A DNA stretch of 64,000 nucleotides from the NCBI GenBank assembly GCA_904397865.1, contig CAJFOS010000006.1, forward strand, positions 44,455 through 108,454. Direction: 5' to 3'. This DNA is from Candidatus Allochristensenella caecavium. Lineage in GTDB: Bacteria; Bacillota; Clostridia; Christensenellales; QAND01. Under the pieces are notes generated by a model, which made no database searches, was not told the origin of the DNA, and worked only from the letters and a program-made list of their open reading frames with translations. The position numbers and the translations under genes were made by a program. This document shows, one piece after another, positions 5,156-52,329 of the stretch. Each line of letters begins with the position of its first letter. Position 1 is the stretch's first letter.

Positions 5156-7192
5156 CTAATGTACCTTTGCCTTTTCCGTTCGTTTTATACGCAACACAAT
5201 GGCCGTCATATCATCCTTGGCACCGCCGGCCTGTTCCATCGCCAAATCCACCAGCCGGCCTGCAGCCGCATGCGCATCCGGCGCTGTTGTGGCCTGCAGC
5301 AGCCAAGATGAGACCAGTTCCGGTTTCATCATGTCCGCAACGCCATCGCTCAACAGCACAATGGTGTCACCGGGCGCGATGTCCCGTTGCATCATTGCCG
5401 GCTGCACACTATCGACAATGCCAATCGGCAATGCCCCCTGCGCGATGGATTCCGCAATTCCCCGCCGTATCAAAAACGATGGCGCCGCACAGGTTTTGAT
5501 AAAATGGCAGCGTTGTTTGTTTAGGTCAATCAAGCATAGGTCCACGGCGGCAAATACATCTTTCTGGCGCATTGTGAGAATGCGATTTACCATGGGCAGA
5601 ATATCCTTCTCTTCATATCCGGCCATAAAATAATCCTCTATCAGCTGCGCTGCCGCCTGGGCTGTCTGGGCCGCCTGTTCACCGCTACCCATGCCGTCAC
5701 ACAGGCATATCAGTTCCCGGCCGCCTTGCAGATGGACGGAGGAAACTACATCGCCGCATACGCTTTCGCCCTCTTTTTGTACACAGGCCGCCCCGCCTTG
5801 CATACTCAGTGGAAATACCTGCGCATATCCCATCACGCATTTGTTCCTTTTCGCGCCGCAGCAAGGCCGTTCCAACGGGCGCATCTCCACCCCGCAGGCC
5901 GCAGAAACCGCTTTTTGCATCATCTTCTGGCATACGCCGTGACCGCCGCAGGCCCGCGTTTCCACCCGAGCCACCAACCCGTCCTCCTCGCGCACAGCAA
6001 CGCCCAACACATCCACCCCTGCCAAGCGCAGACGCTGAGCGATGGTGCGTTCCGCCCAATCATCAAAGCCGCTTCCCTGCTCCACCTGCCGGGCGGTTTT
6101 TTTCAGCAATTCCGCCGTTTGAGCGGACTGCTCAGCCAACAGCACTGTCTGTGCCTGCGCGTCCGTTTCCTTGCCCAATACACGGGAAGTCTGTTTCATC
6201 GCCTTGCTCAGCCGAAACAGCTTTTCCGATACCAACCGCTGCAGCATCGCCGAACGCGGCACATCCAGCAGTGTGCGGCTACGCCGGAACATCGCACCCA
6301 GTGCGTCCAGCCAGCTCTGGGGAACGGCCGCGCAAAGCGCACCTGCTACCATCAGTTCCCCCAAGGGGATAATCGCCTGCGCATTGGCGTTGATATACAC
6401 AGTAAACAGCGCGTTACACAGCATGAACCCCAGGATGGCACCACCCTTGCCCATCCGTCCACAATATCCGGCAATCAGGGCGCATATGCCCATATTCCCG
6501 ATATATAGCGCCGTGGCGCCGCCGCACAGCGTCGCACAAAAGCCAAGTGCCAGGCCGATGCACGCCAATAAGGGGGGCGACATACAACAAGCCAACGCCA
6601 TCAAAATGGCAATCTCGCCCATACGCATTGCATTCATGCTCATAATCGAAACAGAAGCCAGCCCCATCAGCAAGGCACAGATGCCAAAAATGACGGCCAA
6701 CACCTCGTTTTCCTTGAGCGGCGCCTTTCGTTCCAGTGCCGAAAGCCCCCGCAGCGTTTCCGTAAAAATAAACGTGCAGGCCACTGCTAACGTTCCCTCT
6801 AAAAGAGTAATCAGAATGCCATACCAGGTATCCCTACGCACATACATCGTCCCGCAAACCGCGGCCAGCAGTAATGCATAGCGGATGCGCGGCGCTACCG
6901 TGCGGTTATGATGTTCCGCTATAAACTGCATACCCAGCTGCAACGGTGCGTTGAACAGCGTCAGAAACATCATCTCCCTGGATGCAAAGCACGCACCCAC
7001 CACACATCCAATCGCCGTCCGATTGCCCCCTTTGCGTTGCAGATAACTGGCGGTACAAAAGGCCGCTGCAAATGGGCAAAGGGATTTTACTACGCAAGCC
7101 TGCGCCAAAATGACCGCAATGCCCAGCGGAGCAAACGTGCGAATCCAGGTCCCAATGGGAACGGCTTTGAGTTGTTCCATACGCTGTTCCAT
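5156..7192 (-). CDS. spoIIE: Stage II sporulation protein E, PP2C-type phosphatase
   Basis: In the forespore SpoIIE dephosphorylates SpoIIAA and so frees sigma-F; it also acts at the polar septum. The N-terminal half, to about residue 310, is a run of hydrophobic membrane segments. The C-terminal third is a PP2C/SpoIIE phosphatase with the metal-binding stretch LCDGMGSGEQAAQ and a later LLSDGVADMM. Its 678 residues are shorter than the 827 of the Bacillus protein. A strong GGAGGAGG site precedes the ATG at 7192, which I prefer to the ATG at 7270. The promoter region carries a 0A-box-like site. Confidence 0.95.
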   Translation of the reverse strand: MEQRMEQLKAVPIGTWIRTFAPLGIAVILAQACVVKSLCPFAAAFCTASYLQRKGGNRTAIGCVVGACFASREMMFLTLFNAPLQLGMQFIAEHHNRTVAPRIRYALLLAAVCGTMYVRRDTWYGILITLLEGTLAVACTFIFTETLRGLSALERKAPLKENEVLAVIFGICALLMGLASVSIMSMNAMRMGEIAILMALACCMSPPLLACIGLALGFCATLCGGATALYIGNMGICALIAGYCGRMGKGGAILGFMLCNALFTVYINANAQAIIPLGELMVAGALCAAVPQSWLDALGAMFRRSRTLLDVPRSAMLQRLVSEKLFRLSKAMKQTSRVLGKETDAQAQTVLLAEQSAQTAELLKKTARQVEQGSGFDDWAERTIAQRLRLAGVDVLGVAVREEDGLVARVETRACGGHGVCQKMMQKAVSAACGVEMRPLERPCCGAKRNKCVMGYAQVFPLSMQGGAACVQKEGESVCGDVVSSVHLQGGRELICLCDGMGSGEQAAQTAQAAAQLIEDYFMAGYEEKDILPMVNRILTMRQKDVFAAVDLCLIDLNKQRCHFIKTCAAPSFLIRRGIAESIAQGALPIGIVDSVQPAMMQRDIAPGDTIVLLSDGVADMMKPELVSSWLLQATTAPDAHAAAGRLVDLAMEQAGGAKDDMTAIVLRIKRTEKAKVH

Positions 7193-7220
7193 GCTTGTCC
7201 TCCTCCCCTGTTGTAGGGGG

Positions 7221-7255
7221 ATTATAACAAGCTGCACAGGGCGCGTTTCGTCGAA
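7221..7255 (-). promoter_or_regulatory. spoIIE promoter with 0A-box-like site
   Basis: An extended -10 (TGTTATAAT, hexamer 7221-7226) lies about 30 bases before the spoIIE start. The palindrome TTCGTCGAA (7247-7255) contains CGACGAA, one base from the Spo0A consensus TGNCGAA, where the -35 element should be. In Bacillus spoIIE is activated by phosphorylated Spo0A through such overlapping boxes; activation here is inferred. Confidence 0.45.
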
Positions 7256-7335
7256 GGGCGCTTTCGCCAAAAGCCGTAGTCGTTCGCGTAAAAAAGCAAG
7301 TATATTTTTGGCATTTTATTTTGCAGTATTTTATT

Positions 7336-7364
7336 TTGACATTCAAACTACTTTCTGTTATTAT
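7336..7364 (+). promoter_or_regulatory. Consensus sigma-A promoter of the M28 peptidase gene
   Basis: TTGACA (7336-7341), a 17-base spacer and TATTAT (7359-7364) precede the peptidase gene by about 45 bases. Confidence 0.75.
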
Positions 7365-7408
7365 GGGCAACGGTTTTTTATTTTCCCAACGGATTTGGAG
7401 GTAGAATC

Positions 7409-9184
7409 ATGCAAAAACAAACCAGACGAATGGCCGCCTATGGATTGACGGCCGTCGTCCTTCTTCTGGGGGCTTTTTTGGGATATCGGCAGATTTGCCC
7501 GCCCCAAACCCCTGACAATTTTCAGGAAAACAATACCCTTACGCTTTCCGATGTCGCAGGGCAGACGGAACCTTCGATGAATATGATGCTTTCTCATCTG
7601 AAAATCATGAGCCGGCAGATGCATGTGGCTGGAAGCGACGCCAACCGGCAGGTACATGACTACCTGGTTCAACAACTGACTGCCATGGGCTACACCCCGC
7701 AAACCGAATCATATCAGCTCACCCCCCAGCAGATTTTTCAAATCGAACGTACCCACCGCAACCACCAGGACGATGTATATGACGAACAGGAAATCCGCGA
7801 TTATGCTGCCATGGGCGACGCACAGACCTTGGATATCCAAAATGTGCTGGTTACTATCCCCGCGCCGCAGGCGCAGGGGGCCGTTCTGGTCATGGCGCAT
7901 TATGACAGTGTGAAATTCGGTCCCGGCGCATCGGATGACCTCATTTCCGTCACCGCATTGATGGAAACGCTGCGTACGCTGGATACAACCGGCATGCAAA
8001 ACGACCTGTATGTCCTCTTCACAGACGGGGAAGAACAGGGCTTACTGGGTGCCGCTTGTTTTGTGGACAGCCATCCTGAACTCAAGGATAGGCTTTCTCT
8101 GGTGGTGAATGTCGAATCCCGTGGGCAGCGCGGCGCGCTGCTGATGTTCGAAACCACGGCCAATAATCAGGCCATGATTGACCTATACCAACAAGGCGTT
8201 CCCGTTCCTGTCAGCTTTTCCATCGCAACGTCCGTCTACCAGATGATGCAGAACGATACGGACTTGAGCGAATTCATGCTTGCCGGCTATGCGGGCCTCA
8301 ACTTTGCCTGCATTGAAGGCGCCGAAGTCTACCATACCGAAAACGATACCTTTGAAGGGATTGACCGCGATACCGTTTACCACTATCTGCAAACAACCTC
8401 AGGGTTTGTCAACTTTCTCTGTAGGGCGGATGTATCTGCCGTCGCCAGCTCCCAGCAGGATGCTGTGTTCTTCCCGCTTTTGCAGGGAAACCTTGTCGTC
8501 ATGGGCGATGGAACCGCTAGGGGGATTGCTTGGGTAAGCGCAGCGCTTGCATGCGCTTGGATTGCCTTCCTTCTCCTCGCCCGTAAGGCCAGCGGAAAGA
8601 CGTTGCTGAAAACCGTGGGCATGCAATTGGGAATGATGGTAGCCGGAGCACTCGTTAGCTTTGTAGTGGTCAAAATCGCCAGTACGGCCGCACACCTGTC
8701 CACCACGCGCGAATACCTCACCTGGGCGCTTTCTACGCCGCTGTTTTTGATTCTCTTGGCCATCAGCATGGTTGTCAGCACATGGATTTTGCTGCGGTAT
8801 GCACGCAAACAAAACGAACCGCTGGCCGTGCTGGCTGGTATGATGCCGCTGCTCATCCTTGGTGCGATTGGTACCGCCCTGGCATTCAATGCGGCAAGCT
8901 ACTTATTCTCTCTGCCGCTGTGCCTGTTGCTGGCTGTCAGCGTGATTGCCTGGATTTTGCAATCCAAACACATGCGCCTGCATATGTTGGGTAGCATCAG
9001 CCTGGTAGTGATTGGCCTGTTCACATTGCTGCTGTTCACGCCCATCGTATACTTGGTGTATGTAGCGCTCGCCTTGCCGATGGCGCCGGCCGCAATTGCC
9101 CTGGCCGGTATTCCTCTTTCCATCTGTGTGGCATGTGCATGTTTGCTGTTTCCCTGCGACACGCCGGAATCAGCTCTTGCATAA
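7409..9184 (+). CDS. Membrane-bound M28-family zinc peptidase
   Basis: Predicted zinc aminopeptidase of the M28 family, anchored in the membrane with its catalytic domain probably outside. One N-terminal membrane segment (about residues 10-25) is followed by an M28 domain. The expected metal ligands are visible: His in MAHYDS (about 164), Asp in GASDDL, paired Glu in DGEEQGLLGA, Glu in VVNVESRG and His in EVYHTEND. After residue 370 come about seven hydrophobic segments with no motif I recognise. Start ATG has a GGAGG site. It has its own promoter and terminator and is divergent from spoIIE. Substrate unknown. Confidence 0.85.
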   Translation: MQKQTRRMAAYGLTAVVLLLGAFLGYRQICPPQTPDNFQENNTLTLSDVAGQTEPSMNMMLSHLKIMSRQMHVAGSDANRQVHDYLVQQLTAMGYTPQTESYQLTPQQIFQIERTHRNHQDDVYDEQEIRDYAAMGDAQTLDIQNVLVTIPAPQAQGAVLVMAHYDSVKFGPGASDDLISVTALMETLRTLDTTGMQNDLYVLFTDGEEQGLLGAACFVDSHPELKDRLSLVVNVESRGQRGALLMFETTANNQAMIDLYQQGVPVPVSFSIATSVYQMMQNDTDLSEFMLAGYAGLNFACIEGAEVYHTENDTFEGIDRDTVYHYLQTTSGFVNFLCRADVSAVASSQQDAVFFPLLQGNLVVMGDGTARGIAWVSAALACAWIAFLLLARKASGKTLLKTVGMQLGMMVAGALVSFVVVKIASTAAHLSTTREYLTWALSTPLFLILLAISMVVSTWILLRYARKQNEPLAVLAGMMPLLILGAIGTALAFNAASYLFSLPLCLLLAVSVIAWILQSKHMRLHMLGSISLVVIGLFTLLLFTPIVYLVYVALALPMAPAAIALAGIPLSICVACACLLFPCDTPESALA

Positions 9185-9185
9185 T

Positions 9186-9216
9186 AAAAAAGAGCATCTA
9201 AAGATGCTCTTTTTTA
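9186..9216. terminator. Bidirectional terminator between peptidase and ferredoxin genes
   Basis: AAAAAAGAGCATC and GATGCTCTTTTTT arms with a 4-base loop can stop transcription from either side. Confidence 0.85.
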
Positions 9217-9405
9217 TTCCTGAATATCAATCACGCTGACTGGGCAGCTATCACGTGCTTCCTGTGCAGCTGCCTCCGCCTCTGGTGGAATTGGATTAAC
9301 CACTGCCTCCGCTTTTCCTTCATCATTCAGCGCAAAGACCTCGCCGCATATGCCTGTACACAATCCGCAGCCAATACAACCTTCCTGGTCCACTGTCGCA
9401 TGCAT
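9214..9405 (-). CDS. Single-cluster [4Fe-4S] ferredoxin
   Basis: Small cytoplasmic electron carrier of 63 residues. CIGCGLC gives three cluster cysteines (about residues 10, 13 and 16) and the fourth is in SCPVSVI near the C-terminus, the pattern of Thermotoga-type monocluster ferredoxins; an extra Cys at about 20 is also typical. The GGAGG ribosome site ends right against an ATG at 9414 and lies about 9 bases before the ATG at 9405, so the latter is chosen. Redox partner not evident; the flavodiiron gene 2.2 kb away is a speculative candidate. Confidence 0.9.
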   Translation of the reverse strand: MHATVDQEGCIGCGLCTGICGEVFALNDEGKAEAVVNPIPPEAEAAAQEARDSCPVSVIDIQE

Positions 9406-9459
9406 GCTTGTCATCCTCCTCGTTTGTACTTGTTGCTAGCATTCGCCATTTTGCAGATT

Positions 9460-9963
9460 CTATACAATCTTTTTTTCATAACAAATAAACGGCATTCCCC
9501 AGGCCTCAATTTCACCGCGGGCGCTGTACCCACATCCTTCATAGACCCGCAAACTGGACAGGTTTTCCCCAAAAGCCTCTAGACGAATTGCCTCAAAACC
9601 ACGCTTGCGTGCCACTTCCTCCACAAATGCCATGGCACGCCGGCCAATCCCCCGCCCCTGTTGGTCCGGCCTGACGCAGAGCCGATGAATCACACAATAA
9701 CGGGCATGCGGCGCGGCCCATTCCACCTGTTCATATTGCGGAATCCCTTCTGTGGACAGGGCAAAACAAGCCACCACCTCCGCATCGCTCATCACCACAA
9801 ACAGCGCCTTTTGCGCAATATCCTGCTCAATTAACGCAAGCGTTGGATAATGTTCATCCCACTGCCCAAATCCCTGTTGGGCCATCTTTTTGCCCGCGTC
9901 CTGCATCATCTGATAAAGCATTTCCGCCTGGTTTGTGCACGCCAAGGCTACCTTCCATTCCAT
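9460..9963 (-). CDS. GNAT-family N-acetyltransferase
   Basis: Transfers an acetyl group from acetyl-CoA to an unknown amine. The 167 residues contain the acetyl-CoA-binding loop DQQGRGIGRRAM followed by a typical RVYEGCGYSARGE C-terminal strand-helix. The ATG follows GAAGGACG. It is read in the same direction as the ferredoxin gene, about 55 bases ahead of it, and the two might share a transcript. Substrate cannot be inferred. Confidence 0.85.
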   Translation of the reverse strand: MEWKVALACTNQAEMLYQMMQDAGKKMAQQGFGQWDEHYPTLALIEQDIAQKALFVVMSDAEVVACFALSTEGIPQYEQVEWAAPHARYCVIHRLCVRPDQQGRGIGRRAMAFVEEVARKRGFEAIRLEAFGENLSSLRVYEGCGYSARGEIEAWGMPFICYEKKIV

Positions 9964-10317
9964 GATTCATTCCGTCCTTCTGCGGCTGGTCCTGCATAGG
10001 CCAGCGCTTTTTCACATGTCTCTATGATGCATTGTAGCATAGAACGCTTTTCGTATGTTGCACTCATTTTTTGTCCGTGCCCCCCTTTCCCATCCTCCAT
10101 CCAACAAAAATGTTCCTCTGCGGTCACTTCCCCAATCTTTTCCTTCTTTTGCACAATTTTCCCAAGGCATCCCGAGGCTTTGCGAATTTTTAGGAAATAA
10201 ATAGGAATTTTTCAGAAGTACTTGCGCGGCCATTTTACATTATTATAATGTATTTCGATAATATCTTTTATAAATATGCTTAATTTTACTTTATTGTTAT
10301 TAAAGGAGGCGGGTTGT
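9964..10317. other. 354-base intergenic region with one promoter
   Basis: No supported gene. The only clear signal is on the plus strand near the right end: TTGCGC (10222-10227), 16 bases, TATAAT (10244-10249), inside an imperfect ACATTATTATAATGT palindrome that could bind a regulator. It would drive the first Spo0A-C-like gene. Confidence 0.5.
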
Positions 10318-10692
10318 ATGCAAGTCATTCCCACAGAATCTGCCAAGCAAACGATTGAGTCCCTTCTCATCGAACTGAACCTCTCTCCGCATTACAAGGG
10401 TTATCATTACTGCCTTTCCGCGCTCCTGCTTTGTCTGGAAGATATCCACTATCTATCCGGTCAAATCACCAGGACCCTTTATGCCGAAATCGGCATGCAG
10501 TATCACGTCAGCGCTGCGGCCGTGGAGGCGGGCATCCGACACGCTGTCGCTGCTATATGGACGGAAAGCAACACAGCCGCGCTGGACCGTGTTTTTGGCG
10601 AACGACCTTCTTTTCGCCCATCAAATGCGCTGTTTCTCGGTCTTTTAACAAATCGGCTGCACAAACTTTCCAGTCAACGCCGTCCAAAATGA
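10318..10692 (+). CDS. Stand-alone Spo0A C-terminal (DNA-binding) domain protein 1
   Basis: The 124 residues align along their whole length with the DNA-binding domain of the Spo0A at 51317-52090 and have no receiver domain. Shared landmarks are KGYHY, a following ED pair (LCLED against VMEDS), the LY segment and the recognition-helix core IRHAV with a Trp (Spo0A: AIRHAIEVAW), then RPSNALF against KPTNGEF. The Arg after VE in the Spo0A recognition helix is Ala here, so DNA specificity may have changed. The start at 10318 follows AAAGGAGG; an earlier in-frame ATG at 10276 has no site. Predicted phosphorylation-independent DNA-binding protein or Spo0A modulator (inference). Confidence 0.75.
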   Translation: MQVIPTESAKQTIESLLIELNLSPHYKGYHYCLSALLLCLEDIHYLSGQITRTLYAEIGMQYHVSAAAVEAGIRHAVAAIWTESNTAALDRVFGERPSFRPSNALFLGLLTNRLHKLSSQRRPK

Positions 10693-10800
10693 TGCCGTCT
10701 GTTTCTTTTTATACGTTCAATGGATGCGTATTTCCTTTACAGATTCGGCTTGGAATCTTTAACATAAAAGTAAGTTCTTCATATAGAAAGGAGCATTGGC

Positions 10801-11172
10801 ATGAATCAAATTTCCCCTTTGTACGACATTGAAGTTATTTTGACCAAAGTCCATATGCCTCGTTATTTGAAAGGATTTGATTACGCAGCGATGGCAATTC
10901 TATGTTGTCTGGAGGATTCCTCGCTCCTACACAGTATGAAAAAACATCTTTATCCCAAACTAAGTCAAATATTTGACGTCGGCGCAGATGGAATTGATTC
11001 CAGCATCCGCAATGCAATCCGGAAGACCGAATCCCAAATTGAAAAGAGAAACCTGCCGCCCAATGATGAAGCCCTTAAAATCTTGGAAGGACTAGAAGGA
11101 TTCACCAACAATTATTTCATCGCACATATCACCGCCTATCTCCGCACACAGGGAATGTCCCCAAAGGAATGA
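10801..11172 (+). CDS. Stand-alone Spo0A C-terminal-like domain protein 2
   Basis: A 123-residue relative of the previous gene and of the Spo0A effector domain. It keeps KGFDY (Spo0A KGYHF), CLEDSSLLHSM (VMEDSTMINRI), LYPKLSQIF (LYPKVAEHF) and IRNAI (IRHAI). The recognition-helix VER of Spo0A is replaced by IDS, and the Trp is lost, so it may bind different DNA or none. It has no receiver domain. ATG follows AAAGGAG. It lies 108 bases after its paralogue and is followed by a strong terminator, so both may be co-transcribed. Role unknown. Confidence 0.68.
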   Translation: MNQISPLYDIEVILTKVHMPRYLKGFDYAAMAILCCLEDSSLLHSMKKHLYPKLSQIFDVGADGIDSSIRNAIRKTESQIEKRNLPPNDEALKILEGLEGFTNNYFIAHITAYLRTQGMSPKE

Positions 11173-11187
11173 GGAACGGCTTTCTAC

Positions 11188-11227
11188 AAAATGGAGCTCT
11201 TAAAAGAGCTCCATTTTGTGTTGTTTT
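11188..11227 (+). terminator. Intrinsic terminator after the Spo0A-C-like pair
   Basis: AAAATGGAGCTCTT pairs with AAGAGCTCCATTTT and is followed by a T-rich tail. Confidence 0.8.
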
Positions 11228-11307
11228 ATTGACCAACCTGAACTCTCCCGTTTACCTGCAGCGTCAACCGGCGCACACTGTAGTTATTTTGCATTCTAAC
11301 CCTACGG

Positions 11308-11544
11308 AGCACTCTATTATTCTGGCTGAATATGAAATTTTACCGGATAGGAACGCCGACCATTGTATCGATACAGGGTTCACTCATGCAGGCCGCTTTT
11401 ACTTGGGTAATCCGAATAAAGTCGATAAATATGTCGGCCTCCGTCTATGGCGCACTTTTCATCTACTTGTCATTCTGGTGCACCATTGGAACAAGCAATT
11501 GGTCTCTTGCTTTTTCAATTTCAAGCTTTTATACTCATAGTTAG
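11308..11544 (+). pseudogene. Decayed C-terminal remnant of a YihY/BrkB-like membrane protein
   Basis: One frame reads LLFWLNMKFYRI, then IQGSLMQAAFTW, SINMSASVYGAL and NWSLAFSISSFYTHS. These follow in order the last blocks of YihY/BrkB-family proteins (a hydrophobic stretch ending in a PN turn, a GxLfQ helix, the YNAIYGS block and a W-rich final helix). There is no start codon with a ribosome site, and the block after VYGAL fits better after a shift of frame. I read it as a degraded gene end; the match is from memory of the family and could be coincidental. The rest of 11228-11655 shows nothing coding. Confidence 0.35.
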
Positions 11545-11655
11545 CAACCGCTAATTATACTCGGGCATAAATTATATTCTCGTCTGCTGACAAACGCGGA
11601 AGAAAAAACGTGCGGCAGGGAAGACTATGCTTTATCTAAAAAAGGAGTGTTGAAT

Positions 11656-12858
11656 ATGTACTGTACACGCAATATTTCTGAATCCGTCATATGGGTAGGC
11701 GGATGCGACCGCCGGCTGGCTTTATTTGAAAACCTCTTTCCCGTACCGCGCGGCGTAGCTTATAATTCCTACCTAATTCTGGATGAAAAGACGGCGTTGA
11801 TTGATACGGTGGACTCTTCTATCTCCCGCCAGTTTTTAGAAAATGTTTTGTACTCGTTGGGCGGGCGTACACTCGATTATCTGGTTATCAACCACATGGA
11901 ACCGGACCATTGCGCCAACATTGAAGAACTGTTGCATCGCTTCCCCGCATTAAAAATAGTAGGCAATGCGAAAACGCATACATTCATCCGCCAATTTTAT
12001 GATACGGATATTCAAGGCCGTACCATCACCGTGCAGGACAACGATACGCTTTGCCTTGGACAGCATACGCTGCAGTTCTGTTTCACACCCATGGTCCATT
12101 GGCCGGAGGTCATGATGACATATGAACAAAAGGAGCGTATCCTATTCTCTGCGGATGCCTTTGGTAGTTTTGGGGCGTTGAACGGCAACATCTTCAACGA
12201 TGAAGTGGATTTTGACCGCGACTGGCTGGCGGACGCCCGGCGATATTATGGAAACATTGTGGGCAAATATGGCCCGCAGGTACAAACAGCGTTGAAAAAA
12301 GCGGCGGAAAAAGAGATTCAAACCATCTGTCCGCTGCATGGCCCTATCTGGCGCAGCAATCTGGGATATTTGCTGGAAAAATACAACCGCTGGAGTCTGT
12401 ATGAGCCGGAAGAGCATACCGTCACATTTCTATACGGCTCCATGTATGGGGATACGGAAAATGCCGTAAACATCTTGGCTACGGAAATGGCGAAAGCAGG
12501 TATCAAAAACATTGTAGCCCATGATATGTCCAGTACACATGTATCCACATTGATTGGCGAGGTGTTTCGTTGCAGCCATCTGGTGCTGGCCTCTCCTACC
12601 TATAACAATGGTATTTATCCTGCTATGCTTAATTTCCTACATGATATGAAAGCACTGAATCTGCAAAACCGCACCATCGGGCTGGTTCAAAATGGTTCCT
12701 GGGCGCCTTCCAGCGCTAAGCAGATGCGTGCATTGCTGGATGAAATGAAAAACATGCAAATACTTGAACCCGTGGTGACGATTCAATCCTCTTTGAAAGA
12801 ATCTTCGTTGGAACAACTGTTTTCCTTAAAAGATAGCCTGCTTGCTTCGCTGCAATAG
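11656..12858 (+). CDS. Flavodiiron protein (A-type flavoprotein)
   Basis: Reduces oxygen to water, or NO to nitrous oxide, to protect an anaerobe. Residues 1-250 form a metallo-beta-lactamase-like diiron domain with all expected ligands: HMEPDH, the His in VHWPE, Asp in SADAFG and His in PLHGP. Residues 255-400 are a flavodoxin domain (GSMYGDTENAV, then SPTYNNGIYP) for FMN. AAAGGAG lies 8 bases before the ATG at 11656. It is monocistronic with a terminator. No rubredoxin gene is nearby; the window's ferredoxin at 9214 is one possible donor. Confidence 0.93.
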   Translation: MYCTRNISESVIWVGGCDRRLALFENLFPVPRGVAYNSYLILDEKTALIDTVDSSISRQFLENVLYSLGGRTLDYLVINHMEPDHCANIEELLHRFPALKIVGNAKTHTFIRQFYDTDIQGRTITVQDNDTLCLGQHTLQFCFTPMVHWPEVMMTYEQKERILFSADAFGSFGALNGNIFNDEVDFDRDWLADARRYYGNIVGKYGPQVQTALKKAAEKEIQTICPLHGPIWRSNLGYLLEKYNRWSLYEPEEHTVTFLYGSMYGDTENAVNILATEMAKAGIKNIVAHDMSSTHVSTLIGEVFRCSHLVLASPTYNNGIYPAMLNFLHDMKALNLQNRTIGLVQNGSWAPSSAKQMRALLDEMKNMQILEPVVTIQSSLKESSLEQLFSLKDSLLASLQ

Positions 12859-12903
12859 ACCCAAATGGTGCAGCCGTAATATTATTTTAACAGCCCCATA
12901 ATA

Positions 12904-12935
12904 AAGGGAGCCTATCTGGGCTCCCTTCTCTTTTA
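12904..12935 (+). terminator. Intrinsic terminator after the flavodiiron gene
   Basis: AAGGGAGCC and GGCTCCCTT arms are followed by CTCTTTT. Confidence 0.75.
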
Positions 12936-13532
12936 CTCATCAGGGATGCACCGCATCTGCGCATCCTTGGCTAAAAAAAACACTTCGTGTAAACAGGCCT
13001 ACCATTCACAGCATCTAAACGACACCTTCACCTCGTTGTTTGTGCATTGCTAACAATCAAACAGTTTCATATGCGATTCTGTAATAAATACATTCGCTAC
13101 AGCGTTATCTTTTCCCTGTTTTTCAATTGCTTAGCAGCTCTCCAATCGTTATATAAATATACAGGTTTGCAAATGAATTCACAGCATATACCGGTACGTA
13201 ATTCCCCATATTTTTGCACATCTATTACAAACGCCTCTTACAGCTTCATCAATACCCGTATCCCTTTTTAAAAAACTTTTTAAAGACCCTCTCACACAAT
13301 TCCCTATATCGGATACATAGTCACATTCTTCAAACCCCATTTCACTATCCCTTTTGTCTGACATTATACTTCGGCATATTAGAAAGAAATATTTTTGTTT
13401 CCAGCAAACACATCCCGTTCTTTGCCAGTAGATGACCCGGTTGCCCAGTTCAACCAAAATGTCACTTTGCTACTCAAATGAGTTCGGATATCTTTGTCTC
13501 TTTCAATGGTCACACAACTAGTTTGCAGAACA
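12936..13532. other. AT-rich intergenic stretch of about 600 bases
   Basis: Composition is more AT-rich than the flanks and I see no convincing gene, repeat or family match apart from one weak small reading frame on the minus strand (13179-13340). It lies inside the accessory block between spoIIE and the tRNA genes. Confidence 0.4.
13179..13340 (-). CDS. Possible small cysteine-containing protein
   Basis: A 53-residue frame beginning MGFEECDYV, with four cysteines, has AAAGGG about 8 bases before its ATG and a TATAAT-like box a little further upstream. I recognise no family. The length is within what chance allows in AT-rich DNA, so this is a weak call. Confidence 0.22.
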   Translation of the reverse strand: MGFEECDYVSDIGNCVRGSLKSFLKRDTGIDEAVRGVCNRCAKIWGITYRYML

Positions 13533-13562
13533 CAAAAAAAGAGCCCGAAAAACAGGCCCTTT
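13533..13562 (-). terminator. Intrinsic terminator of the tRNA-fMet/tRNA-Met unit
   Basis: On the minus strand AAAAGGGCCTG pairs (with two G-U pairs) with CGGGCTCTTTT around a T5 loop and ends in seven T. Confidence 0.75.
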
Positions 13563-13639
13563 TGGTAGCGGTAACTGGATTTGAACCAGTGACACTCCGG
13601 GTATGAACCGAATGCTCTAGCCAGCTGAGCTATACCGCC
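13563..13639 (-). tRNA. tRNA-Met (CAT), elongator
   Basis: A complete 77-base cloverleaf with encoded CCA. The anticodon loop TTCATAC sits on a TTCGG/CCGGA stem, the T-arm is ACTGG/CCAGT and the acceptor is GGCGGTA/TACCGCT with a G-U first pair. A paired first position and no run of three G-C pairs in the anticodon stem mark it as elongator. Confidence 0.93.
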
Positions 13640-13674
13640 ATAAAAAACGGCTACCGAAGCAACCGTCTTAAACA

Positions 13675-13752
<78 letters not shown>

Positions 13753-13764
13753 ACGACTTTTTTA

Positions 13765-13793
13765 ATTATATCTGTATGCCATACGCTTGTCAA
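13765..13793 (-). promoter_or_regulatory. Perfect-consensus promoter of the tRNA unit
   Basis: TTGACA (13788-13793), 17 bases and TATAAT (13765-13770) on the minus strand. It sits between the end of the ppx gene and tRNA-fMet. Confidence 0.85.
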
Positions 13794-13796
13794 CCC

Positions 13797-14699
13797 TCAA
13801 ATTCCAAGCTTATACGCCAGATAGCCATCCAATCCATCTTTATCGCTGGCGACCAACGCATCGGCGCCTGTATGCTGCAATATGGCTACGGCAATGGCAC
13901 AACCAGGCACAATGACATCGGCCCGTTGGGGTTCCATGCCGGGCAGGCACCGACGTTGTTCGAGCGGCAGATGGAGCAAATGCTCCAAAAGCGCTTCTAG
14001 CCTGTCCTTATGCATGACAAATCCCTGTACGCGTCCTGCGTCATAAGCGGGCAATCCCAGCGATAGCATCGCCAGCTGGGTGGCTGTCCCGCCAACACCA
14101 ATCACCCGCTCCACCTTATGGTTCCCCAATACCTGTTTGCACAATCCCTCTGCGTGCATCTGTGTTTCCTGCCGTAGACGTTCTTGCTGGGCAGGGATGA
14201 TTGGGTTGGTGTCAATCAGCCGTTCCAACAACGTCACACAGCCCATGGGAATGGAACGTGTATACAGTTTTTCTTCCCGCCAACAGGTCAGTTCCGTCGA
14301 ACCGCCGCCGATATCCAGCACCACTCCGCCTTTACACGAAGCCCCATGATAGGCCAGATACGCTTCCAATTCGCCGCCGATGATTTCCGTCTGCAAGCCG
14401 GAAATCTCGGCCAATTGCTCCAAAAGCGCCGCACCGTTGGCTGCTTCGCGCGCCGCACTGGTCGCATAACAGAATACGGGTGGCTGCGCGCCACTTTGTT
14501 GTGCCAGACGAACAAACTCCCGAACTGCTTGTACAGTACGTGTCAGCGCTTGGGGCTGCAACATTCCTGTAGATGCCAAGCCTTCGCCAAGGCGCGTAAT
14601 ATGCAGATATTTTTTTGTAGCGCATAACGTTTTGTGTTCTACATCGGCAAGCAATAACCGAACGGAATGTGTTCCAATATCAATCGCAGCTCTTTGCAT
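13797..14699 (-). CDS. Ppx/GppA-family phosphatase
   Basis: Exopolyphosphatase or pppGpp phosphohydrolase of the ASKHA fold. The 300 residues cover only the two actin-like domains. Visible motifs are IDIGTHSVRLLL at the N-terminus, ATSAAREA, VVLDIGGGSTEL and IGVGGTATQLA. The short form lacks the C-terminal HD domain of E. coli Ppx, so polyphosphate or pppGpp specificity cannot be told. ATG follows GGAGGAGC. It lies between yabR and the tRNA genes and is read in the same direction. Confidence 0.9.
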   Translation of the reverse strand: MQRAAIDIGTHSVRLLLADVEHKTLCATKKYLHITRLGEGLASTGMLQPQALTRTVQAVREFVRLAQQSGAQPPVFCYATSAAREAANGAALLEQLAEISGLQTEIIGGELEAYLAYHGASCKGGVVLDIGGGSTELTCWREEKLYTRSIPMGCVTLLERLIDTNPIIPAQQERLRQETQMHAEGLCKQVLGNHKVERVIGVGGTATQLAMLSLGLPAYDAGRVQGFVMHKDRLEALLEHLLHLPLEQRRCLPGMEPQRADVIVPGCAIAVAILQHTGADALVASDKDGLDGYLAYKLGI

Positions 14700-14719
14700 G
14701 CTGCTCCTCCTTGCATAGG

Positions 14720-14747
14720 AAAAAGCCGCTGGTCAGCGGCTCTTTTC
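14720..14747 (-). terminator. Intrinsic terminator after yabR
   Basis: Minus-strand AGAGCCGCTG/CAGCGGCTTTTT hairpin between the S1-domain gene and the ppx gene. Confidence 0.75.
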
Positions 14748-14748
14748 T

Positions 14749-15111
14749 TTACCTACCGCGGCCTCCGCCGCATTTTTTGCGAATGCTCCGTTTTAAATCC
14801 AGCTGGCGTTCTTCCGATTGTTTGATAAACTTTGCCAGCGTTTCATCAAAATCCTGCTGTGAGACTACCCGTTCTTCCGGCGCGAGTGCCTGCTTGATAG
14901 ACAAGCGAAGCCGCCCATTTTCATCTGCACCCAAAACCTTGATTTGCACCTGGTCGCCAACGGCCAGATACTCATTGACGTCTTTGACAAACCCACGAGC
15001 TACTTCGCTGATATGGACCAGCCCTTTTCGTCCGTCCGCCAGCTTGACAAAAGCGCCAAAATTGGTGATTCCTTCAACCACCCCTTCTATGATTTCACCT
15101 TGTTCCCCCAT
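14749..15111 (-). CDS. yabR: S1 RNA-binding domain protein, YabR type
   Basis: 120 residues: an S1 OB-fold (about residues 4-72, with GVVEGITNFGAFVKL and GLVHISE) followed by a charged tail ending in a Gly/Arg-rich CGGGRGR. Probably binds RNA or ribosomes; exact role unknown even in Bacillus. It is the last gene of the yabP-yabQ-divIC-yabR unit, whose order matches Bacillus, and is closed by a terminator. AAGGAGA is about 13 bases before the ATG, a little further than usual. Confidence 0.88.
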   Translation of the reverse strand: MGEQGEIIEGVVEGITNFGAFVKLADGRKGLVHISEVARGFVKDVNEYLAVGDQVQIKVLGADENGRLRLSIKQALAPEERVVSQQDFDETLAKFIKQSEERQLDLKRSIRKKCGGGRGR

Positions 15112-15134
15112 CAGTCTATTGGTTCTCCTTATTC

Positions 15135-15437
15135 TCAGTTTGTTTCTTTTTTGAACACGTACCGGGTTTCGCCCTGTTTAACCCAACCAAGTTTTTCCCG
15201 CGCTACGGATTCAATATATGCATCTGTCTTGGCCGTTTCCAGCATATGCTGCAGCTTGTCCTTTTCCACGGCCGCGTCCTCGGTCTGTTGCTGCAGCTCC
15301 TTCTGTTCGGCCTTCAAACGGTTCAACTCCTGTTGCTGGATAAAGAATGTTATACCAACGTACAGCAAAAGCGCGCAGAAGGTGACGATAAAAAAGCGTT
15401 TGGTCATTCGCCGCCGCACTTTTGGTTTTTGCTGCAC
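15135..15437 (-). CDS. divIC: Septum formation initiator DivIC/FtsB family
   Basis: A bitopic division protein of about 100 residues: basic N-terminus, one membrane segment (FFIVTFCALLLYVGITFFI), then a coiled coil (QQQELNRLKAEQKELQQQ) and the conserved YIESVAREKLGWVKQGE end. It would form the DivIB-FtsL-DivIC type complex at the septum. An ATG at 15452 overlaps the ribosome site itself; GGAGG lies 8 bases before a GTG at 15437, which I take as the start. Confidence 0.9.
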   Translation of the reverse strand: MQQKPKVRRRMTKRFFIVTFCALLLYVGITFFIQQQELNRLKAEQKELQQQTEDAAVEKDKLQHMLETAKTDAYIESVAREKLGWVKQGETRYVFKKETN

Positions 15438-15470
15438 GTTTTTCGCCTCCATTCTTTTGTTGTCTATAGC

Positions 15471-15848
15471 TTACCCGTTTTCGTCCTGATTTTCAAGCTT
15501 GCTGCGCAGATGCTCGCCTACCCGGCGAGCCAAGCGTATCAGCGCCTGTACAGCCCTGCGGATACCCTGCGCCAGCCATTGCCCCACACTTTGCCAAACA
15601 ATCCCAAAGCCCAGTACATAAGCAATTGCTGCAAAGATGCGCAATTCGCCCTGCAGCCATACCCACAGGCAAGCCGCGAACGTCAACCCTGCCAACAGCA
15701 CAAACAACACATCTGAACACCAGCGCAGCCACTTCGGATTGCCCACCCCATGCCGCACGCCTGCCAATACGCTGTACGCCAAGCCGGCACATCCTCCGCA
15801 AAGCGCAAAGGCTACAAATGCGCTGGGCTGAATCATCATGCTAGCCAT
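15471..15848 (-). CDS. yabQ: Spore cortex biosynthesis protein YabQ
   Basis: Integral membrane protein of 125 residues with four hydrophobic segments, required in Bacillus for spore cortex formation in the mother cell. Identification rests on length, topology and place directly after yabP and before divIC. The ATG is adjacent to the yabP stop (TAAATG), so the two are translationally coupled. Expected regulation by sigma-E is from Bacillus and was not seen here as a promoter. Confidence 0.85.
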   Translation of the reverse strand: MASMMIQPSAFVAFALCGGCAGLAYSVLAGVRHGVGNPKWLRWCSDVLFVLLAGLTFAACLWVWLQGELRIFAAIAYVLGFGIVWQSVGQWLAQGIRRAVQALIRLARRVGEHLRSKLENQDENG

Positions 15849-16142
15849 TTATCGGTTCCAAAGGCGCGATAAAAAGCCGCCCTGCGCTTCGTCCTCATCC
15901 GTATAGACGGCGCCAAAAATCGTACCTGAAACGATGAGCTGTCCCTCTTCCAGGTTCAATTTATCGATATGCAAACCTTCGCCTTCAATGGTCAGCGTTC
16001 CCAGCTCGGTGAACAATACGATTTGCTGTTCATGAAAACAATCCAATTCTTCCACGCCATAGACGGTTACCCGCTGCCGGCCTTCAATGACAAGCGAATG
16101 CGGCCGCAAGGCTCGCCGGCCTGTATCAAGTTCCTTATTCAC
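15849..16142 (-). CDS. yabP: Sporulation protein YabP
   Basis: 97-residue YabP/YqfC-family protein, needed for spore coat and cortex assembly in Bacillus. The family pattern is clear: HSLVIEGRQRVTVYGVEEL, then FTELGTLTIEGEGLHI, LNLEEGQLIVSGTI and a final Tyr-containing strand. It starts at GTG (16142) preceded by AAGGGGGAA. First gene of the four-gene unit. Confidence 0.92.
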   Translation of the reverse strand: MNKELDTGRRALRPHSLVIEGRQRVTVYGVEELDCFHEQQIVLFTELGTLTIEGEGLHIDKLNLEEGQLIVSGTIFGAVYTDEDEAQGGFLSRLWNR

Positions 16143-16200
16143 CCGTTGTTCCCCCTTTCCCTGTATGAAAGGGTATGCGGAAAATGACGGGTATATGCGT

Positions 16201-17299
16201 TTAGGAATGAATCAGATATTCTGTAATAAACAGTTCCAAGTCCCCATCCATTACAGCCTGAATATTGCCGGTTTCCGCATTGGTACGGTGGTCCTTGACC
16301 ATGGTATAGGGATGAAATACATAAGAGCGAATCTGGCTACCCCATTCAATCTTTTTCATTTCGCCCTTGATTTCTGCGTTTTTCTCCGCAATTTCACGTT
16401 CTTTCAATTCGATGAGCTTGCTGCGCAGCATACGCATTGCCATTTCGCGGTTTTGTATCTGACTACGCTCATTCTGGCATTGAACGACGATGCCGGTCGG
16501 CAGATGCGTGATGCGAATGGCAGATTCCGTCTTATTAACGTGCTGACCGCCTGCGCCGCTGGAACGATAGGTATCGACGCGCAAATCCTCCGAGCGAATT
16601 TCCACTTCTGTCGCATCATCCACTTCCGGCATAACGTCCAACGAGGCAAAGGAAGTATGACGGCGGCCCGAAGCATCGAACGGCGAAATCCGCACCAGCC
16701 GATGCACGCCTTTTTCCGCCTTCAGATAGCCATATGCGTCATCGCCCACCACTTCAAACGAAACGCTTTTGATACCGGCTTCATCACCTTCGAGCAAATC
16801 CAGCACCTTGACCGTATATCCTTTTTTTTCACAATAGCGCGTGTACATGCGGTATAGCATGGATACCCAGTCCTGTGCTTCCGTACCGCCTGCGCCTGCA
16901 TGCAGGGACAAAATGGCATTGTTGTGGTCGTATTCGCCTTTGAGCAACGTGGACAAGCGAAGTTCTTCCACACGCTTTTCCAACGCATTGGTTTCCGCTA
17001 CCAAATCCGCTGCAACGGCTTCATCCGGTTCATCCAGCGTCATTTCACATAATTCCAGCGTATCCGATACCCCTGTACATAGCTGCTGATAATGCTCAAT
17101 CCGGTCTTCCAGCCGCTTGATTTGCTGATTTACCTTCTGCGCTGATTCCGGGTCATCCCAAAATCCCGGCGCTTCCATCTGTGTATGAAGTTCCTTCAAC
17201 TGCGCCTGCATCGCCGGCACGTCAAAGGGACTCACCTGCCTTTTTTAAGACGTCCATCATCGCCTGCAGGCGCGTAATGGCCTCTTCAATGATTACCAT
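16201..17299 (-). CDS. prfB: Peptide chain release factor 2, with programmed +1 frameshift
   Basis: RF2 ends translation at UGA and UAA. The gene starts at ATG 17299 (GGAGGAACACA before it), encodes 25 residues (MVIIEEAITRLQAMM...), and meets an in-frame TGA at 17222-17224 in the classical slip site CTT TGA C, with an upstream AGGTGAG that can act as the internal Shine-Dalgarno element. After a +1 shift it continues as DVPAMQAQL to a total of about 365 residues. The stop-codon-reading SPF motif is not obvious to me, but the GGQ loop is present as GAGGQHVNK. It starts 10 bases after secA, as in many Firmicutes. Confidence 0.95.
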
Positions 17300-51316: not shown

Positions 51317-52090
51317 TCAGGCGCTTTGTTCCAATGACAGCTTATCCGCCACCAGCGCGATGAATTCGCCGTTGGTCGGCTTTTCATTCTTGGTATATAC
51401 CTGATAGCCAAACAGTTGATTGATGTTTTCAATCTTTCCGCGCGTCCAGGCCACTTCAATCGCATGACGGATGGCGCGTTCCACTTTGCTTGGCGTCGTT
51501 TCAAAATGTTCGGCCACCTTGGGATACAATTCCTTGGTGATGCGGTTAATCATCGTGCTGTCTTCCATGACAAGCTTAATCGCATACCGCAGGAAATGAT
51601 AGCCTTTGATATGCGCCGGAATGCCCACAGTCAGGAACACGCTGGTAATCTTCTCATCAATCGAACGGCTGCTCGGCAATGGAGAGATGCTCTGCCCAAC
51701 GTGCAGGCCGCGGCTATCTTCTTCCAACACTTCGAGTATCCGGCGCCGCAAATTTACAAGCGAATACGGTTTGCGCAGGAAATAACGCGCGCCCAGGTCC
51801 ATCGTCGTGCTGATTACGCGGTCGCTTGCAAACGAGGAGACCACAATCATCTCCGGCCGGGCGGCTGCCGGCAATTGTGCCACACGTTCCAGCACTGAGA
51901 TGCCGTCCACCTGCGGGATAATCAAATCCAACACCACTGCATCCACATCCTGTATGTGCGCAAGCGCTTCTTCCCCATCGTGTACGATATGCGCGAGGGA
52001 GAGCTGATTATCCTCTGCAAAGAATTGCTTCATCTCTTCGCAAAGGTCGTAATCATCCTCCACCAAAAGAATTTTCTTCTTCTCGCTCAT
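51317..52090 (-). CDS. spo0A: Sporulation master regulator Spo0A
   Basis: Response regulator that starts sporulation. 257 residues: receiver domain (VEDD at 10-13, phosphoacceptor Asp55 in VVLDLI, Ser85/86, Lys107 in FLRKPY) and the C-terminal DNA-binding domain from about 145 (IKGYHFLRYAIKLVMED, recognition helix SKVERAIRHAIEVAW, KPTNGEFIALVADKL). AGGAGGA precedes the ATG at 52090; the longer frame to 52180 lacks a site. Two 0A boxes lie upstream, suggesting self-regulation. Two receiver-less relatives are encoded at 10318-11172. Confidence 0.97.
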   Translation of the reverse strand: MSEKKKILLVEDDYDLCEEMKQFFAEDNQLSLAHIVHDGEEALAHIQDVDAVVLDLIIPQVDGISVLERVAQLPAAARPEMIVVSSFASDRVISTTMDLGARYFLRKPYSLVNLRRRILEVLEEDSRGLHVGQSISPLPSSRSIDEKITSVFLTVGIPAHIKGYHFLRYAIKLVMEDSTMINRITKELYPKVAEHFETTPSKVERAIRHAIEVAWTRGKIENINQLFGYQVYTKNEKPTNGEFIALVADKLSLEQSA

Positions 52091-52170
52091 GTAAGATTCC
52101 TCCTGTCGACCGGACTTCCGTTGTGTCGTAACTCCGATTTTTCTTTGATTGTTTTGGTGATTCTGGTTGG

Positions 52171-52176
52171 ATATTA
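52171..52176 (-). promoter_or_regulatory. Candidate spo0A promoter -10
   Basis: TGCTAATAT on the minus strand is an extended -10; no good -35 is visible, which is common for activator-dependent promoters. It would give a 5' leader of about 75 bases. Confidence 0.4.
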
Positions 52177-52224
52177 GCATATTTCTTGGGAAAAATAAAA
52201 GGAATAAGAGCGAGATTTGCGATA

Positions 52225-52251
52225 TTCGTCATTATTTCCTATGATTCGACA
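52225..52251 (-). promoter_or_regulatory. Pair of Spo0A-binding (0A) boxes upstream of spo0A
   Basis: TGTCGAA (52245-52251) and TGACGAA (52225-52231) on the minus strand both match TGNCGAA exactly, in the same orientation, 20 bases apart. They lie about 50-80 bases upstream of the candidate -10 and also within the leader region of the divergent PBP gene. Confidence 0.6.
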
Positions 52252-52329
52252 AACTTCGTATTTTTTCGCTTATTTATCCGAAATTCCCGCATGATTCTTT
52301 TCCGGATTTTGCGAACAGGAGGTGTCCTT

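Follow-up and report, generated by a model that had tools for sequence, protein, structure and literature searches.

Two tandem receiver-less Spo0A effector-domain proteins in a sporulation gene neighbourhood of Candidatus Allochristensenella caecavium

Introduction

Spo0A is the master response regulator of sporulation and is composed of a receiver (PF00072) and an effector domain (PF08769). It is usually treated as a single phosphorylation-gated switch per cell. A contig of Candidatus Allochristensenella caecavium raises the question of what Spo0A effector domains might do without that switch. The stretch of DNA that was analysed, 64,000 nucleotides long and here called the window, encodes a full-length Spo0A and also two short genes in tandem, ORF1 and ORF2, whose products resemble the effector domain and have no receiver.

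This kind of protein is already known, since human-gut phages carry truncated spo0A genes that encode the effector without the receiver (Schwartz et al. 2023, PMC10294663; 29 sequences in a figure). That study proposes that the truncated proteins work without host signals. PMC6907783 also reports an enrichment of PF08769 in gut mobile elements. According to PMC3485338, phosphorylation is not needed for the isolated Spo0A effector domain (Spo0A-DBD) to bind its targets. No account of receiver-less Spo0A in bacterial chromosomes was found in the literature searched, which leaves most subscription papers outside. Two observations of the present analysis, again with no account in that literature, are the occurrence of such genes as a tandem pair among sporulation genes and their recurrence in the order, including directly after spoIVB.

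The gene pair and its flanking signals

Both genes are present, with the coordinates and lengths given by an earlier sequence-only reading of the window. They are co-directional and 108 nt apart. The features discussed below are as follows.

10234..10262, + strand: sigma-70-like promoter candidate 5' of ORF1, 10 of 12 matches
10302..10309, + strand: Shine-Dalgarno-like AAAGGAGG of ORF1, read from the sequence
10318..10692, + strand: ORF1, receiver-less Spo0A_C protein of 124 aa, pI 8.6
10787..10793, + strand: Shine-Dalgarno-like AAAGGAG of ORF2, read from the sequence
10801..11172, + strand: ORF2, receiver-less Spo0A_C protein of 123 aa
11185..11220, + strand: terminator-like hairpin of 16 pairs, with a loop of 4 and a T-rich tail
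51317..52090, - strand: full-length Spo0A with receiver and effector domain, the best Spo0A_C match of the genome
52245..52251, - strand: perfect 0A box TGTCGAA upstream of spo0A

The hairpin lies 12 nt 3' of the ORF2 stop codon. Judged by this hairpin and the 108-nt spacing alone, the two genes likely form a single transcription unit that the hairpin closes. Terminator-like sites number 3 in the scanned region against a shuffle mean of 1.5, and sigma-70-like sites number 4 against 3.8, which is no excess. An Rfam scan of 7000-17000 gave two tRNAs and nothing else.

Domain assignment and predicted fold

Both proteins exceed the gathering cut-off of 25 bits for Pfam Spo0A_C (PF08769), a profile of 104 positions. 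ORF1 scores 77.9 bits (E 6.8e-22) over profile positions 1-104, and ORF2 scores 47.7 bits (E 1.7e-12) over positions 2-103. Neither has a second Pfam family up to E 10, and Response_reg is absent from both; the window Spo0A carries Response_reg and Spo0A_C. The Spo0A equivalog TIGR02875 has a cut-off of 200 bits, which ORF1 (66.3 bits) and ORF2 (38.3 bits) fail, matching the effector part only. Among PDB sequences, the matches at E <= 0.001 are solely the Spo0A effector domain entries 1fc3 and 1lq1.

Both proteins are predicted to adopt the effector-domain fold. AlphaFold2 models have a mean pLDDT of 89.7 for ORF1 and 92.5 for ORF2, and 1fc3 and 1lq1 are the top Foldseek matches of each model (TM 0.85, rmsd 1.4 and E 6.6e-7 for ORF1; TM 0.71-0.77 and E 2.8e-5 for ORF2). 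The identification of the pair as receiver-less Spo0A effector proteins therefore stands. The profile search and structure prediction that the sequence-only reading had proposed gave a Spo0A_C match and an effector-like fold for both, and neither a better match to another family nor a different fold arose. Effector family and predicted fold are thus common to Spo0A and the pair, whereas the receiver switch is present only in Spo0A and R214 and D258 are changed in both short proteins.

Recognition-helix and other key residues

Residues are numbered as in B. subtilis through the match to 1lq1, and R214 and E213 reportedly contact bases in the work on that structure. ORF1 keeps E213, R217, H218, F236 and N249 and changes R214 to A, A257 to T and D258 to N. 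ORF2 keeps R217, A219 and N249 and changes E213 to D, R214 to S, H218 to N, A257 to T and D258 to A; it also has E at position 236, so that F236 is not kept. G172, R217 and N249 are common to the two. By these residues, ORF1 retains more of the Spo0A surface than ORF2. The motifs first read from the two proteins need some correction. The pattern of VE followed by Ala or Ser fails for ORF2, which has no VE and reads I-D-S where Spo0A has V-E-R, and LYPK is found in ORF2, whereas ORF1 has LYAE.

Full-length Spo0As vary little at these positions. Among 127 full-length rows whose domains are distinct and complete, Glu213 occurs in 126, Arg214 in 124, Arg217 in all 127 and Asp258 in 122. At position 257, Ala accounts for 105 rows, Ser for 15 and Thr for 4, and the other 3 have different residues. 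A smaller set of 66 has Arg214 throughout and A, S or T at position 257 in 61, 4 and 1 rows, and in the smallest set Arg214 and Ala257 are each found in 49 of 49. The Glu213-Arg214 pair, near-invariant but no formal criterion of Spo0A, is absent from ORF1 (E-A) and ORF2 (D-S). Three of the 127 rows have no R214 (L190, L191 and L221), and two of these, L190 and L191, adjoin spoIVB and carry changed receiver residues.

Among 54 distinct stand-alone Spo0A_C proteins, taken from hand-picked fetched loci and thus no random sample, Arg214 is found in 36, Arg217 in 38 and Ala257 in 29. Proteins with more than 45 or 60 residues before the domain (e.g., L044, L048, L080, L190) and incomplete domains (e.g., L077) were left out of this set. 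Arg214 is therefore absent from 18 of these 54 other proteins. An earlier table had Arg214 in 87 of 88 stand-alone proteins (a copy of ORF2 removed), a count biased by a word-based search seeded with R-containing sequences. The claim that loss of R214 is a unique mark of ORF1 and ORF2 was dropped for this reason, the proteins from whole genomes giving 36 of 54.

Position 257 is treated as critical in B. subtilis Spo0A. PMC9195935 describes A257V as leaving abrB repression intact in B. subtilis while abolishing sporulation, which indicates that DNA binding and activation are separable; in Paenibacillus polymyxa, the same change does not abolish sporulation. The literature links the position to dimer formation or sigma contact. 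The A257 change was nevertheless withdrawn as a mark of lost activation and carries no argument here, because ordinary full-length Spo0As can have Thr at this position. Two such proteins, L163 2854-3648 and L164 3001-3765, are full length with ordinary recognition helices, yet have Thr257.

The ORF2 family also differs in charge, with a pI of 6.8-7.7 (the lowest value being that of the shortened P0007) against a median of 9.2 for full-length Spo0A domains. The laboratory Spo0A-DBD (PMC3485338; 1fc3, 1lq1) has the same domain borders and predicted fold as the pair. As described in PMC3485338, the C. difficile Spo0A-DBD keeps all DNA-contacting residues, whereas R214 is missing from ORF1 and ORF2 and E213 from ORF2.

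Orthologues and nearest relatives

A search of 5.8 billion proteins returned six rows for ORF1 and three for ORF2. P0001 is identical to ORF1, and P0007 is identical to ORF2 over its last 105 residues. P0002-P0004 are full length with 83-89% identity to ORF1, and P0008-P0009 are full length with 62-77% identity to ORF2. P0005 and P0006, metagenome versions of ORF1, diverge as if frameshifted. In three sequences of each family, conserved columns make up 14 of 15 in the recognition helix of ORF1 against 80 of 109 in the rest, and 11 of 14 against 57 of 110 in ORF2. By these counts, conservation of the recognition helix is no lower than that of the remaining protein in both families.

Profile searches found no orthologue of ORF1 or ORF2 among 150 order-level relatives. 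The self-score of the ORF1 profile is 264.6 bits, with 64.5 at the next place; the corresponding scores of the ORF2 profile are 249.1 and 61.1. Scanning a genome contig collection with ORF1 gave no match. Orthologues are thus few, and the pair is narrowly distributed but conserved where found. The nearest relative found for ORF1 is the stand-alone protein L037 from a genome of the same family (G001; 36% identity, E 1.6e-18), with a branch support of 95/80, and the L037 neighbourhood differs from that of ORF1. In a tree of 74 rows and 115 columns, with 18 of 71 inner branches starred, ORF1 and ORF2 as a single clade give an AU p of 0.36.

Host genome and gene neighbourhood

The source genome is 1.61 Mb in 21 contigs and is 92.7% complete. 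Several Christensenella and Christensenellaceae records are among the named relatives of the window Spo0A, which makes Christensenellales the likely order. Five places match Spo0A_C at E <= 0.1. Besides the full-length Spo0A, ORF1 and ORF2, these are a Spo0A-like protein encoded on contig 14 and, on contig 13, a weaker match (24.2 bits in the genome scan and 26.8 as a translated protein, the cut-off being 25). The contig 13 protein (L005 1324-2079) has a partial Spo0A_C followed by ~120 residues that appear helix-turn-helix-like by eye. It is a possible Spo0A_C fusion, for which Pfam gives Spo0A_C only.

The classic position of spo0A is the next gene after spoIVB. In this genome, that position is held by the contig 14 protein (L002 934-1818), a second Spo0A-like protein that adjoins spoIVB. 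Its receiver has Ala-Ala-Asn where the window Spo0A has Glu-Asp-Asp, and the phospho-acceptor Asp and the Lys are kept. Since 35 rows read DDNDAK, the third of these residues, Asn, is ordinary, and what is unusual is the replacement of the first two, the acidic pair.

ORF1 and ORF2 are flanked by spoIIE (5156-7270) with tilS on one side and by yabR-divIC-yabQ-yabP on the other; spoIIE, tilS and yabR are named by sequence and gene order rather than by a profile. The interval also contains an M28 peptidase, a ferredoxin, a GNAT protein, a flavodiiron-type protein, two tRNA-Met and Ppx/GppA. The two other genomes of the family have spoIIE and tilS, and the block of the pair is not beside them in the 20-kb stretches compared.

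0A boxes

The 310 bp upstream of spo0A (52091-52400) contain one perfect and three one-mismatch 0A boxes. These four compare with a shuffle mean of 1.27, and 21 of 500 shuffles have as many, which suggests autoregulation of spo0A. No perfect box lies in front of ORF1 or ORF2. A one-mismatch box before ORF1 (10254-10260) is at chance level, 254 of 500 shuffles having as many, as is a direct repeat of TAGGAA with a period of 11 (10191, 10202; 98 of 500 shuffles with as many repeats). Control of the pair by Spo0A was therefore set aside: with no box beyond chance before it, the pair does not resemble a Spo0A target.

Stand-alone Spo0A_C proteins across the order

Spo0A_C matches at E <= 0.001 are found in 136 of 151 genomes. 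Matches were listed in full for the 34 relatives with at least three of them, not for the other 117 genomes, so the counts that follow are no order-wide figure. At least one match lies in an open frame of 90-180 aa in 28 of the 34, where a few frames may end at contig ends. Two matches within ~1.2 kb on the same strand occur in five of the 34: G075 and G066 have two short frames each, and G061, G080 and G098 have longer frames (234-370 aa). The view of this arrangement as a rarity is thereby weakened, with phage examples published and stand-alone proteins common in the related genomes searched.

The four Spo0A_C matches of G075 (E <= 0.001; genome 97% complete) fall without exception in frames of 106-112 aa, and two of them are in tandem. 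No full-length Spo0A match was found in this genome. The tandem proteins (L185 4471-4794 and 4878-5198) have 106-107 aa and near-identical C-terminal halves.

A stand-alone gene of 106-125 aa lies directly after spoIVB in six fetched loci from six genomes.

L069 3010-3387, genome G104: receiver-less Spo0A_C gene after spoIVB
L070 2807-3148, genome G046: receiver-less Spo0A_C gene after spoIVB
L203 2736-3065, genome G142: receiver-less Spo0A_C gene after spoIVB
L208 2276-2611, genome G038: receiver-less Spo0A_C gene after spoIVB
L209 2248-2583, genome G009: receiver-less Spo0A_C gene after spoIVB
L187 2936-3256, genome G075: receiver-less Spo0A_C gene after spoIVB

Together with the altered acidic pair of the contig 14 protein, the arrangement suggests that spo0A genes at the spoIVB position may first have been freed from phosphorylation control and later have shed the receiver in place. 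The stand-alone proteins of the order (e.g., L037, L069, L185, L188) are receiver-less like ORF1 and ORF2, have 104-132 aa and also form tandem short pairs, as in G075 and G066. They have other neighbours at the loci examined, and two thirds of the 54 compared keep R214, whereas ORF1 and ORF2 do not.

Phages and mobile elements

Truncated spo0A of phages resembles ORF1 and ORF2 in having the effector without the receiver. Unlike the phage genes, the pair lies in tandem among housekeeping and sporulation genes. Nine neighbouring proteins were scanned with Pfam (the M28 peptidase, ferredoxin, GNAT, flavodiiron-type and Ppx/GppA proteins, S1, DivIC, YabQ and YabP), and none is a phage structural or integration protein. 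Two scans of a viral contigs collection, with two peptide patterns each, confirmed no relative.

In a phage collection, nine and ten records matched, none of them annotated, at 24-33% identity and no closer than the host Spo0A. All seven records examined are unverified fecal scaffolds. L089-L093 have full-length frames (255-286 aa), and L094 and L095 have short ones (125 and 164 aa). Since L089-L093 are full length, they may be bacterial DNA, and the phage comparison therefore draws on PMC10294663. A phage origin of the pair was set aside, the two scans having confirmed no viral contig relative and five of the seven phage-collection records examined having full-length frames. ORF1 and ORF2 each match two PHROG families, one of which is just 111 positions long. 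In a plasmid collection, three annotated full-length Spo0As matched.

Possible function of ORF1 and ORF2

The preferred explanation, held tentatively, is that ORF1 and ORF2 regulate genes by binding DNA independently of phosphorylation, that they repress more probably than they activate, and that their preferred site is shifted from the canonical 0A box. Their DNA binding would be constitutive, by analogy with the published isolated effector domain. The site preference may have moved off the 0A box, given the changes at R214 in both and at E213 in ORF2. Activation would be weak or absent, as the changes at D258 in both and the lost F236 region in ORF2 suggest, and the two proteins would be co-transcribed. 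The sequence-only reading had proposed constitutive binders, antagonists or heterodimer partners of Spo0A, or regulators with new targets. The first of these ideas gains from the missing receivers, the predicted effector fold and the unphosphorylated binding of the isolated domain (PMC3485338). Plain competition for the canonical 0A box becomes less likely, because R214 is lost in both proteins. Loss of R214 could also abolish DNA binding rather than shift the site, and ORF1, with E213, R217, H218 and F236 kept, might still bind a degenerate 0A box.

In a rather unlikely alternative, one or both proteins are passive antagonists that bind 0A boxes without activating and so restrain Spo0A-dependent genes. 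The shared predicted fold, R217 in both, E213 and H218 in ORF1, the altered D258 and a full-length Spo0A in the genome as opponent are all in keeping with it, but neither protein has R214, and ORF2 also lacks E213. G075, with its four short frames, also speaks against it: if the assembly is complete there, the class in that genome is not solely a Spo0A antagonist. The recognition-helix changes could instead mean that the proteins do not bind DNA at all and pair with Spo0A or each other through the effector-domain dimer surface, titrating their partner in the manner of SinI on SinR. The change at D258, beside the position tied in the literature to dimer formation or sigma contact, the two diverged copies in one likely unit and the near-neutral pI of the ORF2 family (6.8-7.7 against 9.2) would fit such a role. 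This explanation is distinctly unlikely. Each family maintains R217 and a large part of the recognition helix, for which a pure protein partner would have no use.

Two further explanations deny the pair a role in the host, and both are very doubtful. The pair might be a remnant or passenger of a phage or mobile element and serve the element, as receiver-less Spo0A in gut phages (PMC10294663), the reported enrichment of PF08769 in gut mobile elements (PMC6907783) and the PHROG matches of both proteins would allow. Against this, the nine scanned neighbours have no integrase or structural phage protein, and two tRNA-Met are among the neighbouring genes; no relative was confirmed among viral contigs, and the phage-collection matches are no closer than the host Spo0A (24-33% identity). 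With just as little probability, the genes are decaying, functionless fragments of Spo0A duplicates. The order has many and varied stand-alone copies, and P0005 and P0006 read as frameshifted, but both ORFs are intact with ribosome-binding sites, have intact orthologues at 62-89% identity and yield confident fold predictions.

A more specific form of DNA-binding regulation is improbable and is given here as speculation. ORF1 and ORF2 would each be half a Spo0A and, made from one unit, would form a phosphorylation-independent heterodimer, side by side and head to tail on a composite non-0A site, and Spo0A would have to exceed the threshold that they set. On a wider scale, the order would repeatedly have made spo0A receiver-less, in several cases in place at the spoIVB-spo0A locus, with a working Spo0A elsewhere.

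If the order does carry ungated effector families, entry into sporulation may depend on protein level and competition besides phosphorylation. Gut phages with truncated Spo0A would then use a type of regulator that is also used by hosts. The proteins also provide a natural mutational series (residues 213, 214, 217 and 258) with which the DNA-recognition and activation parts of the effector domain could be separated.

Additional short Spo0A_C proteins

Other genomes of the order contain further short copies. G036 (4.2 Mb; L193-L198) has six or more short Spo0A_C proteins, and the recognition helix of three reads V-A-R-E-I-A. Near one of them, L196, transposase-like and recombinase-like genes are seen by eye. 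In G131, near-identical 119-aa Spo0A_C proteins are found on two contigs (L040 5996-6355 and L041 5993-6352), and the neighbouring frames otherwise differ, as after a recent copy or transfer.
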